Source: Candidatus Methylacidithermus pantelleriae
GTDB lineage: Bacteria > Verrucomicrobiota > Verrucomicrobiia > Methylacidiphilales > Methylacidiphilaceae
Direction of reading: 5' to 3'
Assembly (NCBI RefSeq): GCF_905250085.1
Contig: NZ_CAJNOB010000007.1
Location: forward strand, 1-49,624
Length of the DNA stretch: 49,624 nt
The notes beneath the pieces were generated by a model. It was not told the DNA's origin. It saw only the letters and a program-made list of their open reading frames with translations, and searched no databases. The position numbers and the translations under genes were made by a program. Positions 12,647 through 19,121 of the stretch are shown in pieces. Numbering within the stretch: the first letter of the stretch is position 1; the number at the start of each line of letters is the position of its first letter.

Positions 12647-13753
12647 GTGAGGCTCGAACAAGCCGTGGCGAGGGAAGAAGAAGGGAAGACGCTGGTCAAA
12701 GGGGCCCAGAGCCGGGATAAAAACCTGGAGCTGGCGCTTCAAGCTATTACCAAGCAGTACGGGGACGGTTCCATCGTCCGGCTGGGGGATGATCGTGCCA
12801 AGCTGGCTATTGAGGTGATCCCAACCGGATGTCTGGTGTTGGACCAGGCGCTGGGAGTGGGCGGGTTCCCTCGGGGTCGAATTGTAGAGATTTTTGGTCC
12901 TGAATCCAGCGGTAAGACCACCCTGGCCCTGACGGTCTTGGCACAGGCTCAGCGGATGGGGGGTGTTGGGGTGCTCATTGACGTCGAGCATGCTCTGGAT
13001 CCCAATTACGCCCGCCGTATTGGGGTAAACATGAACGAGCTTTTGGTTTCCCAGCCGGATTCGGGAGAAGAAGCGCTTATGATTGCTGAAACCCTCATCC
13101 GATCCAACGCGGTAGATGTGGTGGTCGTCGACTCCGTAGCTGCGCTTGTTCCCCGGGTGGAGCTTGAGGGGCAAATCGGTGATGCAACGGTCGGAGCGCA
13201 GGCACGGCTTATGAGTAGCGCCTTGCGAAAGTTGACCTCGCTCATCAGTCGGGCGAAGACCGTGTGTATTTTTACCAACCAGTTGCGAGAGAAAATTGGG
13301 GTCCTCTTTGGCAATCCCGAAACAACTCCTGGTGGGAGGGCGTTGAAATTCTACGCGTCGGTACGCATCGATATCCGAAAAGTGGCGCAACTCAAAGCGC
13401 CCGATGGAAATGTGATCGGAAACCGGACACGGGTCAAAATTGTAAAAAATAAAGTGGCCCCTCCTTTTACGGAATGCGAGTTTGACATTCTGTACAACGA
13501 AGGGATTTCTCGAGAGGGGGCACTGGTAGACTGGGCTTTGGAAGTGGGGCTTCTTGAGCGTAAGGGTTCCTGGGTTTTCTTTGAAGGTCGGCAGGTGGGG
13601 CAAGGCCGAGATCAAGCGGTTGCCGAGCTAAAAAAGAACCGCGAGCTTTACGAACAGCTCGAGGCCCGCGCGAAGGCCCGGCTTGCGGAACACGAGGCCT
13701 CCTCCGGGCCGGTAACCGCACCGAAAATCGCCGGGATTAAGGCAGAGCATTGA
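12647..13753 (+). CDS. recA: Recombinase RecA
   Basis: RecA forms filaments on single-stranded DNA, drives strand exchange and triggers LexA cleavage. The product has Walker A GPESSGKT at about residues 84-91, the [13 protein letters not shown] strand, Walker [11 protein letters not shown], the L1/L2 DNA-binding loops ([34 protein letters not shown]) and a basic/acidic C-terminal tail. As called from GTG 12647 it has 368 residues, with a slightly long N-terminus. An in-frame GTG at 12665 has a better-placed AGGTGAGG upstream and may be the true start. It abuts rpoD with no spacer and is probably translated from the same message. Its 3' end overlaps the convergent adenylate kinase gene by 17 bp. 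Confidence 0.97.
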
Positions 13754-14366
13754 GGATCGCTCGTAGTACCTGATATGGGAGCTGCGTGGCGTCCACATGG
13801 AGGACAAGGTCCTCGGAAAAACACGAAAGGATCGGCCGCGTTTCTTCCTCATAGGTCTTTAGCCTCTGGAGAATCACCTCTTCCTTTGCGTCGTCAGGTC
13901 GGCCTTCCTTGCGTGCTCGCTGGCGAAGACGTTCCAAAAGGATCGCTCGGTTGGGGCAACTTAAGTGAAACACCCTGAGGATTTCGACATAAGGGGCTAG
14001 CATGTGAACCTGGTTTACATTGCGGGGTATGCCGTCGAGCACCAGGTAATCCTCCTGCGGCCGGAAGCGTCCTTGGTCGATCATAGAGCGGAGGTGTTCT
14101 TGCCAGATTTGAACGGTGAGCGCGTCCGGTACCAGCTCGCCCCGGGTCGAATAATGCCAGAAAAGTTGCCCTGCCGAAGACTTGGGGTCAAGGGACCGAA
14201 AGATCTCACCACTGGCGCAGTGAAAAAACCCGGGGATCGTTCCTAGGATCTTGCCTTGGGTCCCCTTTCCAGATCCCGGGGCTCCCAAAAGAAGGAGGGA
14301 TCGGTAGCGCACAGCCGTTTCGATTAGTAGTAAAGGCGGCTTGCGTTGGCAAGCGAGCCGTCCCAT
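13737..14366 (-). CDS. adk: Adenylate kinase (or close NMP kinase)
   Basis: Adenylate kinases interconvert ATP + AMP and 2 ADP. From ATG 14366 the protein has 209 residues, the short-type length without the zinc LID. The P-loop is [10 protein letters not shown] near the N-terminus. The AMP-binding region has [14 protein letters not shown] (compare HISTGDMLR), then GELVPD, and [12 protein letters not shown] replaces the usual DGFPRTxxQ. The LID region is short and contains [29 protein letters not shown], as expected. The longer open frame upstream to 14561 is non-conserved. The DGIPRN variant means a different NMP specificity cannot be excluded. It is convergent with recA and divergent from the motor operon. 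Confidence 0.85.
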
Positions 14367-14502
14367 AGTCTTCGAAAAAAAGGAAGAGTGGTCTTTTTTT
14401 CGGGTCCCTGGCTGATTGGGCTGGGAGGATCCGAAAAAAAAGAGCCTTGGAAAAAGGGAAGGATACATCTTTACGGAACAAACCGCTTCTTTAGGCAAGC
14501 CT

Positions 14503-15213
14503 ATGACCTTCTTTGCCGCAGCTACCGTACCCACGCTTCCGCAATTGGGAAAGGTTTTCACGGTGTGGGAGCTTTTGCAGTCGGCCGGATGGGTGATGAT
14601 CCCCCTCCTTGGCGTTTCCGTTGCGGTTGTGGGGCTTGTTTTTTATTATCTGGTCTCGTTACGAGACAGCCGGATTACAACTCCAGAGTTAGAAAAAAAA
14701 GTGGATGCTTTTATTGAGAAGGAAGACTGGACCGGGCTTGCCGGATACCTACGCGGTCGCTCCCAGGCATTGGCGCGGCTATTGCGTTCGGTCCTTCATT
14801 TTGTGTGGAAGCAAGGTGAGGCGGATCCGGAGGCGATTCGTGCAGTAGCCGAATCCACAGGGTCGGCAATCGTTGCTGAGCTTGGCCAGCGGGTGATGTA
14901 TCTATTGGATCTGGGGGTCATCGCTCCCATGGTTGGGCTTTTTGGTACCGTGATCGGAATCCTTCGCTCTTTTGGCTCCATTGCTGCAGAACCTTCCCCG
15001 ATGCGGACGATGCTACTGGCGGGAGGAGTCTCTCAAGCCCTTGTTTCCACCGCGGTGGGACTGATCGTGGGGATTACGGCCATGTTATTTTACTCCTATT
15101 TCCGTGGAAAGGTTCAGCGGCTGGTCAGCCTTTTTGAGGAACGCGCCACCCTGCGGGTACAGGAGCTTGTGCTGGCAGTTAAGAGGGAAAAGGGAAAATT
15201 GTCATCCCTATAG
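14503..15213 (+). CDS. MotA/TolQ/ExbB-family proton-channel subunit
   Basis: This 236-residue inner-membrane protein has the three-helix ExbB/TolQ layout. TM1 lies around GWVMIPLLGVSVAVVGLVF. TM2 lies around LLDLGVIAPMVGLFGTVIGI, which contains the family signature APMVGLFGTVIG. TM3 is around ALVSTAVGLIVGITAMLFY. Between TM1 and TM2 lies the cytoplasmic domain. These proteins form a pentameric channel around the ExbD/TolR dimer and convert proton flow into force on a TonB/TolA-type partner. ATG 14503 is chosen over an upstream frame extension because it begins the conserved N-terminal periplasmic segment. It is the first gene of a four-gene plus-strand operon with ExbD, a TPR protein and a TolA/Pal-like hybrid. 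Confidence 0.88.
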   Translation: MTFFAAATVPTLPQLGKVFTVWELLQSAGWVMIPLLGVSVAVVGLVFYYLVSLRDSRITTPELEKKVDAFIEKEDWTGLAGYLRGRSQALARLLRSVLHFVWKQGEADPEAIRAVAESTGSAIVAELGQRVMYLLDLGVIAPMVGLFGTVIGILRSFGSIAAEPSPMRTMLLAGGVSQALVSTAVGLIVGITAMLFYSYFRGKVQRLVSLFEERATLRVQELVLAVKREKGKLSSL

Positions 15214-15231
15214 CAAGGGCCGAGCAGAGCC

Positions 15232-15663
15232 ATGAATCTTCGTCGAAGGCTGGTTTTTGAACCCATTGGTTTTCAATTGGCGCCGATGATTGATGTGATC
15301 CTTTTTCTTCTGTCCTTCTTTCTTCTCACCTGGAATCTGGCTCGCTACGAAGCCGATCTTTCCATTAAGGTTCCCAAGGCCAAACATGGGCAAGAGCCCA
15401 ATCGCTTACCAGGGGAAGCCGTTGTCAATGTGAGCAAGGACGGCAAGGTCAACCTCAATCGGCGTGTGGTTTCCCGGGAGGAATTGGAAGAAATTCTCAA
15501 GGGCTTGGTGGAGCAATATCCGGACCAGGCAGTGATCATCCGGGCGGATTCTGATACGAGCTATCAGGTGATCGTAAATGTGCTAGATGTGTGTCGAGCT
15601 GCCAACGTGTGGAACATTGCCTTTGCCACCACCCGACCCGAAGAAAAGACCTCAACCCCCTAA
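15232..15663 (+). CDS. ExbD/TolR-family motor subunit
   Basis: The 143-residue protein has one N-terminal transmembrane helix, LAPMIDVILFLLSFFLLTW (about residues 16-34). It contains the conserved proton-carrying Asp (MID) found in ExbD and TolR. The periplasmic domain follows the family pattern: PGEAVVNVSKDGKVNLNRRVVS, then LVEQYPDQAVIIRADSDTSYQVIVNVLDVCRAANV, where the usual text is 'v.i.aD..v.y..vv.v.d....aG'. It lies 18 bp after the TolQ/ExbB-type gene. Whether the pair is functionally Tol-like or Exb-like cannot be read from these two subunits. The fourth gene of the operon points toward a Tol-Pal-like role. Confidence 0.9.
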   Translation: MNLRRRLVFEPIGFQLAPMIDVILFLLSFFLLTWNLARYEADLSIKVPKAKHGQEPNRLPGEAVVNVSKDGKVNLNRRVVSREELEEILKGLVEQYPDQAVIIRADSDTSYQVIVNVLDVCRAANVWNIAFATTRPEEKTSTP

Positions 15664-15764
15664 AAGGTGACGGACCCGGCTCTCTTTCTTTCGCCGGCAG
15701 GCAGGATGGGTTGGGATCGGGGTATCGGGTCGCCAGTTTAGCTCTGGTTGCCGGGTTTGGGGTC

Positions 15765-18086
15765 GTGAAAGCCAGGGTCTTCTATTGGCTTTTGTTTTTC
15801 TTACCGCTGTGGGGATGGAGCCAGATGGTGAGGAGGGCACTTCCCCCTGGGATGAGCGTTTTGGACCCGGCGCAGGCAGAGTTTGAGGAGGGCCTTTCGT
15901 ACTTTCAACAGGGAAAGTATGCGCAAGCCATCCGGTCGCTGGGAAGTGCGCTTTCTAGCTTAGAAGAGTCCAAGCAGGAAGCTGCCCTCTTTTACATTGC
16001 CGAATCCTACCGGTTGCTTTCTCGTTACCCTGAAGCACAGGCAATCTATCGCGCCTTGTTGGCACGTTTTCCCCAGGGGGCCCTCGCAGCAGACGCCCGA
16101 TACCGGGAGGCGGAGACGTATTATCTCCAAGGTAAGTGGGTAGAGGCAGAGAAGCGGTTTTTGGATCTTTCCCGCACCGCTCCTCCATCCTTGCAAGGTG
16201 TGGCTCGCATTTACGAGGCCCTTTGCAGAATCCATCTTGGGCAAGAGACCGAGGGCCTCCGGGACTTGCAAGCGCTAGTGGAGGGTCCAGATTCGGGAAC
16301 GGCAATCGGTGCAGCTCAGGCTCTGGCGGGGTACTTTGAAGAGAGGCATCGCTATGACCAAGCCTATCGCTATTGGAGCTGGGTGGAAGAGCACGCAACC
16401 CGGTCTGAGACAAAGAGCGAAGCGGTAGCGCGAGCGGGATGGGCGCTCCTCAATCAAGGACAGTGGTCGTTGGCTCGCCAACATTTCGAGCAAGTTCGCC
16501 GGTCGTACCCGAAAAGCCCATGGATCCGGCTGGCCAATGCGGGTTTGCTCCAGGCCGTTTTTGGCGAGAAAGCCTTTGACAAGTATGTTGCATTATTTGC
16601 TGAGCTCCAATCTGAAACGCTGGAGAGCTTGAAACCGGTTCTGTGGTTTGATCTAGGGCATAGTTACTTGGAGCTGCAGAAATACCGAGAGGCAATTCGC
16701 GTGTTCGAGGAGACTTTACGTCGCTGGCCTCGGCATGCCTTGGCGGAACTAGTTTCCTACGAAGCAACCTATTGCCGTATAGAGCTCGATCCATCGCAAA
16801 CGCTGGAAGAGGTGCACCGGTTTCTTGAACACTACCCGGAAGGAGCCATGGCTCCGCGGGCCAAGTACCTTGAGGCAAGTTTTCTCTCCAAGGAAGGTCG
16901 ATGGGGAGAGGCGATTCCCATTTGGGAACAACTGGCTCAAAATCCTGACGGGATCCCTGTGGCGCACGTGCAGCTGGGTCTGGGCCGAGCCGCTTTTGAA
17001 CTGCATCGCTGGCGCGCAGCGGCTCAAGCGTACGAGAAGGTGGCGCAAGCGGATCCGCACGGCTCCTATTACGCGCAAGCGCGGTTGGCCCAAGGAATGG
17101 CACTGCGGAGGGCTCGCGAACCCGACAAGGCCGTAAGGGCTCTGGAGGAGGCCAAGAAGGCTCTCGCCGGAGGGCCTCTGGAAGAGTATGTGCTAGCGGA
17201 ATTGGGGCTTGCTTATGCTGATGCCAAGCACGCTGCAGAGGCCGTTCCTTTGTTGCAGGAGCTTCTTACCCGGTATCCAGAGTCACGTTTTCGTCCTTTT
17301 GCCGCATATAGTCTGGGCGTTGCCTTAACCGAGTTAAAGAAGTACGACTCGGCTTCGAGGATGCTCGAGATGGCTCGGGAGTTAAACCCGCAGGCTTTTT
17401 ACCTTCCAGCTACGTACCGGCTGGCTTGGATCGCCTACGAAAAGCAAGATGTAATCCAGGCTTCCCAATATGTGGAGCAGTACGACCAGAAGGTGGGGGA
17501 GGACCCAAACGCCGCACGGATCCCTGCCGGACTGTATTACTGGCTGGGAGTGCGATGGCTTGAGAAGAAAGATCCTGCCAGAGCCGAAGCTTTTTTGCGC
17601 AAAGTCATTGAGCATCCCCAACCTGGGTCCTATCTTGCTTCGGGGTATTTTGAACTGGCCGAAGCCGAACGCGAACAAAAGAAATGGGCCGAGGCGCTCA
17701 AGCATTATCAGGAGTTTCAGGCTAGGGAACCCAAATCGAAGGAGGCTAGCACCGTTCTTTTAGGGATCGCGGAGGCGGAACTCGGCTTGGGCCAATATGG
17801 CCCATCGTACTCGCTCATTGAGCAGGTCATGCGCAGGGAGTTAGAAGGAAAGTACAACGCAAAAGCCCGAATGCTTCTTGGGGAATGGTATCTAGCCCAA
17901 AACAAGTATTTGGATGCTGCGAAAGCGTTTAGCGCGTTGAGTCTTTTGTATGACGATGCGGAGCTCACACCTCGAGCGATGGCGAAAGCGGCGGAATGTT
18001 TTACGCGTGCCGGAGATTGGCGGCAGGCGGAACTATGGCGGAAAAAACTAAAGGAGAAGTATCCGGGCTTTCCTGGGAGTACATAG
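15765..18086 (+). CDS. Large periplasmic TPR-repeat protein
   Basis: About 773 residues, almost entirely tetratricopeptide-like helical pairs. It begins with a signal peptide (MKARVFYWLLFFLPLWGWSQ). Repeats start at EFEEGLSYFQQGKYAQAIRSLG and recur through YPEAQAIYRALLARFPQGA, KYREAIRVFEETLRRWPRHA, RWRAAAQAYEKVAQADP and KWAEALKHYQEFQAREPKS to the C-terminus. The frame is open further upstream across the end of exbD, but GTG 15765 puts the signal peptide first and is the best start. TPR proteins of the CpoB/YbgF and AglT kinds accompany TolQR-type motors and coordinate envelope processes. This one is far larger than CpoB. It precedes the hybrid anchor protein by 30 bp. Confidence 0.85.
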   Translation: MKARVFYWLLFFLPLWGWSQMVRRALPPGMSVLDPAQAEFEEGLSYFQQGKYAQAIRSLGSALSSLEESKQEAALFYIAESYRLLSRYPEAQAIYRALLARFPQGALAADARYREAETYYLQGKWVEAEKRFLDLSRTAPPSLQGVARIYEALCRIHLGQETEGLRDLQALVEGPDSGTAIGAAQALAGYFEERHRYDQAYRYWSWVEEHATRSETKSEAVARAGWALLNQGQWSLARQHFEQVRRSYPKSPWIRLANAGLLQAVFGEKAFDKYVALFAELQSETLESLKPVLWFDLGHSYLELQKYREAIRVFEETLRRWPRHALAELVSYEATYCRIELDPSQTLEEVHRFLEHYPEGAMAPRAKYLEASFLSKEGRWGEAIPIWEQLAQNPDGIPVAHVQLGLGRAAFELHRWRAAAQAYEKVAQADPHGSYYAQARLAQGMALRRAREPDKAVRALEEAKKALAGGPLEEYVLAELGLAYADAKHAAEAVPLLQELLTRYPESRFRPFAAYSLGVALTELKKYDSASRMLEMARELNPQAFYLPATYRLAWIAYEKQDVIQASQYVEQYDQKVGEDPNAARIPAGLYYWLGVRWLEKKDPARAEAFLRKVIEHPQPGSYLASGYFELAEAEREQKKWAEALKHYQEFQAREPKSKEASTVLLGIAEAELGLGQYGPSYSLIEQVMRRELEGKYNAKARMLLGEWYLAQNKYLDAAKAFSALSLLYDDAELTPRAMAKAAECFTRAGDWRQAELWRKKLKEKYPGFPGST

Positions 18087-18116
18087 AACGAACAAGCGAA
18101 CAAGGGGAGTAAGGTT

Positions 18117-19121
18117 ATGATTCTTGAGTCAGCGCAAGACCGGAAACTTTTTATTGCGGCCCTCGGGCTTTCATTCCTTGTCCACGGATTCCTTTTGTGG
18201 ACTTTCCGTTCCGTATCTTTGCGAGGATGGGCCATCCCCATTCATAGAGAAAAACTGCGTGCCTTTGAACTGAAACGGGTTGAGATTCCGGCTTCCTCCT
18301 TTCAAGGGGATCCCCGTGCCAAGGAACCGATTTCGGTCTCTGCCCTGGCCATGAGTACCCCGCGATTCAAATTACCGCGTCCCAACAATGCTCAAGAGCC
18401 TCTGGACAGCCGGACCTGGCAGACTGCGCTTCCGGAGGCCGCTTCGGGGAAAGCGCCGGAGCTGGCAGTGGTTGCCCCTACACCTCCCACAGCGGTGAGT
18501 CCTTACGCGCAGAGCGAGCTTGCCAAAGTGGATACAGAAATCGCTCAACTGGCCAATGACAGCTCCCGGGCCGGGGTATCGCGGCCGGAGCTCATTCTTC
18601 CTTCCAGTTCCGGTTCCAGCTACCTTGTGGGGGCGACGGAACAGGGAATCCTTTCTGATGCTACGCGCAAGGAGGCTGCCGGAAGTGCCATTCCTGGAAT
18701 CGAAGAAATCCAATCGCGTCTTCGTGCTGGGATTCCCCCGTTTAGCCCTAGCCTTTCCCGGCCGGTAGTGATCCAATTCCCCAATGAGATTCTTTTTGAC
18801 TTTGATTCGGCAAATCTTCGAGCAAGCGCCGAGCCCTATCTCCAGCAGGTGGTGGAGATTCTCCGCCGGTACCGGAGGGCCGATGTGCAAATTGATGGCT
18901 ACACAGACACCTTCGGAGACGACCTTTATAACCTTCGCTTGAGTGAAGCCAGGGCCGAGTCGGTCCGGCGCTGGTTGGCTCAGTTTTTTCCCCCGGATCG
19001 GGTGACGTTCCACACGCGAGGTTACGGGAAGAGTCACCCCGTCGTAAATCCCTATGGCACCATTGAGGAGCAAGAGAGGAATCGCCGGGTTGTCATCATG
19101 ATTCATGCATTAACAGACTAG
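18117..19121 (+). CDS. TonB/TolA-type anchor fused to OmpA/Pal peptidoglycan-binding domain
   Basis: This 334-residue protein has an uncleaved N-terminal hydrophobic helix (LFIAALGLSFLVHGFLLW, about residues 11-28). Ser19 and His23 there reproduce the SxxxH motif through which TonB and TolA engage ExbB-ExbD or TolQ-TolR. A Pro/Ser/Ala-rich periplasmic linker (about 40-210) follows. The C-terminal 110 residues are an OmpA-like domain: ILFDFDSANLRASAEPYL, QIDGYTDTFGDDLYNLRLSEARAESV, HTRGYGKSHPV and a final NRRVVI, including the Asp and Arg that bind diaminopimelate. In normal systems TolA and Pal are separate proteins in different membranes. Here one chain could link the inner-membrane motor directly to the cell wall. 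TAAGG precedes ATG 18117. Domain calls are solid; function is inferred. Confidence 0.88.
   Translation: MILESAQDRKLFIAALGLSFLVHGFLLWTFRSVSLRGWAIPIHREKLRAFELKRVEIPASSFQGDPRAKEPISVSALAMSTPRFKLPRPNNAQEPLDSRTWQTALPEAASGKAPELAVVAPTPPTAVSPYAQSELAKVDTEIAQLANDSSRAGVSRPELILPSSSGSSYLVGATEQGILSDATRKEAAGSAIPGIEEIQSRLRAGIPPFSPSLSRPVVIQFPNEILFDFDSANLRASAEPYLQQVVEILRRYRRADVQIDGYTDTFGDDLYNLRLSEARAESVRRWLAQFFPPDRVTFHTRGYGKSHPVVNPYGTIEEQERNRRVVIMIHALTD

Follow-up and report, generated by a model that had tools for sequence, protein, structure and literature searches.

The window, that is, the whole stretch of 49,624 nucleotides that was analysed, carries four co-directional and closely spaced genes (14503-19121) for a TolQ-type proton-channel subunit, a TolR-type subunit, a large periplasmic TPR protein, and a transducer with an OmpA head (Table 1). 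The gene order TolQ/ExbB, TolR/ExbD, large TPR protein, transducer had been claimed in the first-pass annotation and is borne out by the open reading frames and their Pfam matches. The SxxxH pair Ser19/His23 was found at the residues that the annotation had named, and the wall-binding domain of the OmpA/Pal type which it had placed on the same chain was recovered there by Pfam. Judged from the sequences, the four-gene set is conserved and chance is excluded as its explanation. The ATG of tolQ sits within a longer open frame, and the frame of the TPR gene is open from 15591 onwards.

Table 1. Genes and protein features of the operon and its neighbour
Feature	Position	Strand	Basis or remark
tolQ-type proton-channel subunit, 236 aa	14503..15213	+	Pfam MotA_ExbB 2.4e-27
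tolR-type subunit, 143 aa, carrying the membrane Asp and dedicated to the module	15232..15663	+	Pfam ExbD 1.3e-27
Large periplasmic TPR protein, CpoB/YbgF-like	15765..18086 (start uncertain)	+	Pfam TPR hits, NCBIfam, conserved core
Transducer, 334 aa: N-terminal membrane helix, long linker, OmpA head	18117..19121	+	Pfam, ortholog alignment
SxxxH putative motor-docking motif, Ser19-His23 codons	18171..18185	+	His invariant in 23/23; role by TonB/TolA (PMC12215075)
Candidate D-box for TolR, FxLKRxEIP, residues 50-58	18264..18290	+	Conservation; resembles the TonB D-box by eye
OmpA peptidoglycan-binding domain, residues 226-323, with Asp264 and Arg279	18792..19085	+	Pfam 1.7e-17
adk-like gene (ORF), conserved divergent neighbour of the operon	13740..14561	-	True start probably further in

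The motor, the transducer, and the TPR protein

The operon contains TolQ and TolR motor genes of the Tol-Pal kind. In alignment with E. coli TolQ, the window TolQ keeps its pore threonines and TM3 proline, residues that are also kept in ten syntenic orthologs, and the membrane Asp of the window TolR aligns with that of ExbD. The pair scores below the NCBIfam equivalog cut-offs for tolQ and tolR, hence the assignment is to the TolQ/TolR kind only. The Ser-His pair of TonB and TolA touches ExbB and TolQ, respectively, and in the structures the Ser18 and His22 of E. coli TolA contact Ser28, Trp32, and Pro138 of TolQ (PMC12215075). The window TolQ keeps a Ser and the TM3 Pro, but the Trp is not evident by eye, which counts against docking on the motor. 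The coupling of the transducer to the motor is well supported by homology.

The transducer consists of one hydrophobic helix with Ser19 and His23, which a ~190-residue linker joins to the OmpA domain. The helix (LFIAALGLSFLVHGFLLWTF) has zero acidic residues, and the proton-binding Asp is found on TolR instead. Among 23 aligned orthologs, which share 27-43% identity with the window protein, His23 is the sole invariant residue N-terminal of Pro193, and Asp264 and Arg279 are likewise invariant in the OmpA domain. The OmpA match with an intact ligand Asp and Arg is the mark of a peptidoglycan-binding OmpA domain, and the spacing of fifteen residues between the two is the same as in the known domains of this type. 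The position of Ser19 is occupied by Ser in most orthologs and by Ala in genus g12, and a few OmpA-headed homologs of f11 (L115, L122) are without the helix His. Both observations count against the motor-driven reading favoured below; the two f11 homologs are possibly uncoupled from the motor.

Just after the helix, where TonB has its D-box, the transducers conserve an FxLKRxEIP island that resembles the D-box by eye. The D-box of TonB, QPISVTMVTPAD, is caught as a strand by the ExbD dimer (PMC10907165). Neither a TonB_C domain nor a TolA C-terminal domain was detected on the transducer with Pfam and NCBIfam, and the TonB_C matches of the genome lie elsewhere. A single-sequence AlphaFold prediction of the transducer gave one confident helix (residues 6-36) and folded the OmpA domain poorly; the head has solved structural relatives and resembles the domains of MotB, MotS, and MotY. 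A cleaved signal peptide at the N-terminus was rejected, since the His in the hydrophobic core is kept in nearly all homologs. This conserved His together with the confident helix speaks for the retained N-terminal anchor that the annotation had assumed. An anti-phage Zorya system was also rejected, as the ZorB matches are cross-matches of the OmpA domain only, and a scan of genome contigs yielded only OmpA-domain look-alikes.

The TPR protein has many Pfam TPR matches and reaches 164 bits against a cut-off of 90 with the NCBIfam tol_pal_YbgF/CpoB profile, a score that is inflated by the repeats. Of the companions of tolQR, its gene is the one shared most widely, also in lineages that encode the transducer at another locus. 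The protein probably acts on the OmpA head as a localiser or regulator; it may be a local regulator or the other partner.

Conservation of the module and of its dedicated TolR

Across 62 genomes of the same order, the transducer is present in all families but f9 and is mostly full length. Synteny of adk beside tolQ-tolR-TPR-transducer holds in f1, f5, and, within f8, genus g14. Elsewhere the module is split in one of two ways: tolQ-tolR-TPR stay joined in f3, f7, and genus g12 of f8 with the transducer at another locus, and in f6 and genus g13 of f8 the TPR gene stays by the transducer with tolQR at another locus. The first HMM pass found no tolQR beside the transducer at the distant loci, so the linkage has been lost there. 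Outside the order the transducer is unlinked from tolQR, yet the His is still kept in nearly all homologs.

The lack of adjacency to tolQR in many lineages counts against the favoured reading, and could be taken to mean that the transducer is a passive tether which joins the inner membrane and the wall with no coupling to a motor. The Ser or His missing from some homologs would agree with such a tether. However, the His is invariant within the order and widely kept at the class level, and the TolR dedicated to the module follows the transducer nearly one-for-one. The identity of this TolR is 48-74% across the genomes of the order, where it and the transducer are both present in 37, both absent in 21, and discordant in 4 of the 62, most of the discordant genomes being incomplete. 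The co-occurrence gives a Fisher p of ~2e-12, a value that is not independent of shared ancestry. At the level of the class, the dedicated TolR occurs in 59 of the 60 genomes with a transducer and in none of the 37 transducer-negative genomes listed, and every genome that has it also has the transducer. Where the linkage is broken, the dedicated TolR is still retained almost one-for-one with the transducer. A passive tether is the least probable of the explanations weighed here.

Tol-Pal in the relatives and its absence from this genome

All of the other genomes of the family (12/12) show PD40 matches, indicative of TolB, and a Pal-like OmpA protein from an ORF of ~180-220 aa. In the loci that were read, the order is CHASE2-like/J-like, then tolQ-tolR-tolA-tolB-pal-rarA-bat, and the Pal shows a lipobox. 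As these 12 genomes carry both the operon and a separate tolB-pal locus, the operon is a second system, and the loss of Tol-Pal does not explain its origin.

The genome of the window differs from its relatives in this respect. The annotation had proposed a search for separate tolB and pal genes and had named a canonical tolQRAB-pal locus elsewhere as a finding that would tell against it; neither was found by PD40, by a sister TolB, or by a census of OmpA-domain proteins. The genome has no PD40 match, the sister TolB query finds nothing, and just two of its proteins have an OmpA domain: the transducer and one of 307 aa with a single helix, both without a lipobox. The related expectation that there is no outer-membrane lipoprotein with an OmpA domain therefore holds for this genome, which has no Pal lipoprotein among its OmpA proteins. 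The CHASE2-like gene and rarA diverge with ~0.4 kb between them (L094:8210-8606, G000 contig C1, 401 kb), and no significant match to tolQ, tolR, tolA, tolB, or pal was found in this interval. The J-like gene is missing along with tolQRAB-pal, and the bat genes lie ~50 kb off. An assembly gap was rejected as the cause of the missing tolB-pal because the flanking genes are this close together inside a long contig. A relocated tolQR was also rejected, as the tolQR of the relatives has no close counterpart among the other exbB/exbD loci here. It follows that the whole tolQRAB-pal block was lost, unless it is unassembled in a genome estimated to be 99.91% complete.

Other genes of these families occur in the genome. 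The 307-aa OmpA protein (L016:4900-5823, G000 contig C4) has one N-terminal membrane helix and is encoded after an HtrA-like gene; the 11 kb read around it showed no gene of the MotA type. There are three further Ton-like sets (L013, L014, L015; G000 contigs C34, C1, C3), made up of exbB-exbD-TonB-like before guaB, TonB-like-exbB-exbD-def, and exbD-TonB with no exbB near a contig end, and one orphan exbB.

The operon could in principle be a compact Tol-Pal in which TolA and Pal are fused and TolB is dispensed with, the job remaining the same. A TolQ and a TolR do share one operon with both an OmpA domain and a CpoB-like TPR protein, and both TolB and Pal are gone from this genome. But the canonical tolB-pal is also kept in every other family genome, the operon predates the loss of tolB-pal, and the head is untied to the outer membrane, all of which makes a mere compaction improbable. 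The annotation had described a compact motor operon that ends in a TolA/TonB-Pal hybrid, and it is supported in part. The docking helix, the wall-binding domain, and the missing TolB and Pal of this genome agree with that description, while the sisters that carry both systems, and a core that matches the vWA modules described below, speak against a fused form of Tol-Pal. It is possible that the operon took over the work of Tol-Pal following the loss.

Relation to known systems and the proposed mechanism

The tolQ-tolR-TPR core recurs across the phylum. For example, the locus L159 from another class has the same core directly followed by a 608-aa protein (L159:3275-5098) whose SxxxH helix is joined by a linker to a vWA domain. 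The main text of a recent study places such vWA transducers beside a TPR gene, tolQ, and a paired tolR in the PVC group and predicts that their His docks on the motor; that main text contains no mention of a transducer with an OmpA head (Williams-Jones et al., 2025, PMC12204202). The vWA-type modules and the operon share the tolQ-tolR-TPR neighbours, a Ser/His helix, a linker (disordered in the vWA type), and a head which is neither TonB- nor TolA-like. They differ in that the former have a vWA head and a paired tolR, whereas the window has an OmpA head and one tolR. The window transducer is most plausibly a relative of the vWA-type transducers, with an OmpA head in place of the vWA domain, and no account of an OmpA-headed TonB-type transducer was found in the searchable literature.

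Likewise, the operon shares with Tol-Pal the TolQ/TolR motor, a CpoB-like TPR gene, a transducer with an SxxxH helix, and a Pal-type OmpA domain, but it is without the TolA C-terminal domain, TolB, and a lipidated Pal, and its OmpA domain is on an inner-membrane chain. With ExbBD-TonB it shares the type of motor, the SxxxH helix, a possible D-box, and the long linker; the window transducer differs in having no TonB_C, and an outer-membrane receptor as its partner is not expected. The MotAB, PomAB, and ZorAB stators belong to the same motor family and likewise have a wall-binding domain of the OmpA type. In these stators that domain sits on the pore (B) subunit, whereas in the window the B subunit is TolR and the OmpA domain is carried by a third chain, which is peripheral.

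The likeness to the stators raises the question of whether the OmpA head only fixes TolQR to the wall, in the way that MotA is anchored by MotB, with the force being exerted on something else, such as the TPR protein or a partner in the outer membrane. The resemblance of the head to the MotB, MotS, and MotY domains fits such an anchor, and so does the wide sharing of the TPR gene with tolQR noted above. However, the head is carried on a peripheral His helix of the TonB type, which in TonB and TolA receives force, and not on a pore subunit, and this helix is without the proton-binding Asp of MotB. MotB-like anchoring is unlikely, though it comes next after the preferred reading.

The preferred reading, which we consider probable, is that the operon encodes a TolQ/TolR-type proton motor of the inner membrane with a periplasmic, CpoB-like TPR partner and a TonB/TolA-type transducer that draws the membrane and the wall together or cycles its head. 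This is favoured by the domains, the invariant His23 and Asp264/Arg279, the motor residues, the synteny, the co-occurrence with the dedicated TolR, and the occurrence of the same core before an SxxxH-vWA transducer; wall pulling and head cycling are preferred here together. By analogy to TonB and TolA, the transducer helix would dock on TolQ through Ser19/His23, and the TolR dimer would hold a strand around residues 50-58. The head would bind peptidoglycan and not an outer-membrane receptor or TolB. Proton flow would then place tension on the linker, which the OmpA head would pass to the cell wall, and we infer from this that the motor exerts force on the wall. The inner membrane and the wall would be actively drawn together, or the head would let go and bind again, probably while the cell constricts or the wall is remodelled.

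In the Tol, Ton, and vWA transducers alike, the force is thought to be delivered to the outer membrane. A transducer head that binds the wall would, if the reading is true, add peptidoglycan as a third target of the proton-driven motor. As a tentative extension, a wall-gripping motor may have replaced Tol-Pal in this lineage, whose envelope would be constricted and held together with neither TolB nor Pal, and the OmpA-headed transducers may form a separate, class-wide class with a peptidoglycan output. A genome that has the operon and no tolQRAB-pal block is a natural experiment on the need for Tol-Pal, and the presence of the transducer and the dedicated TolR throughout the class means that cultured relatives can be used for testing. 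The operon persists here without the usual Tol-Pal, and may hence represent a second means by which a motor acts on the bacterial envelope.
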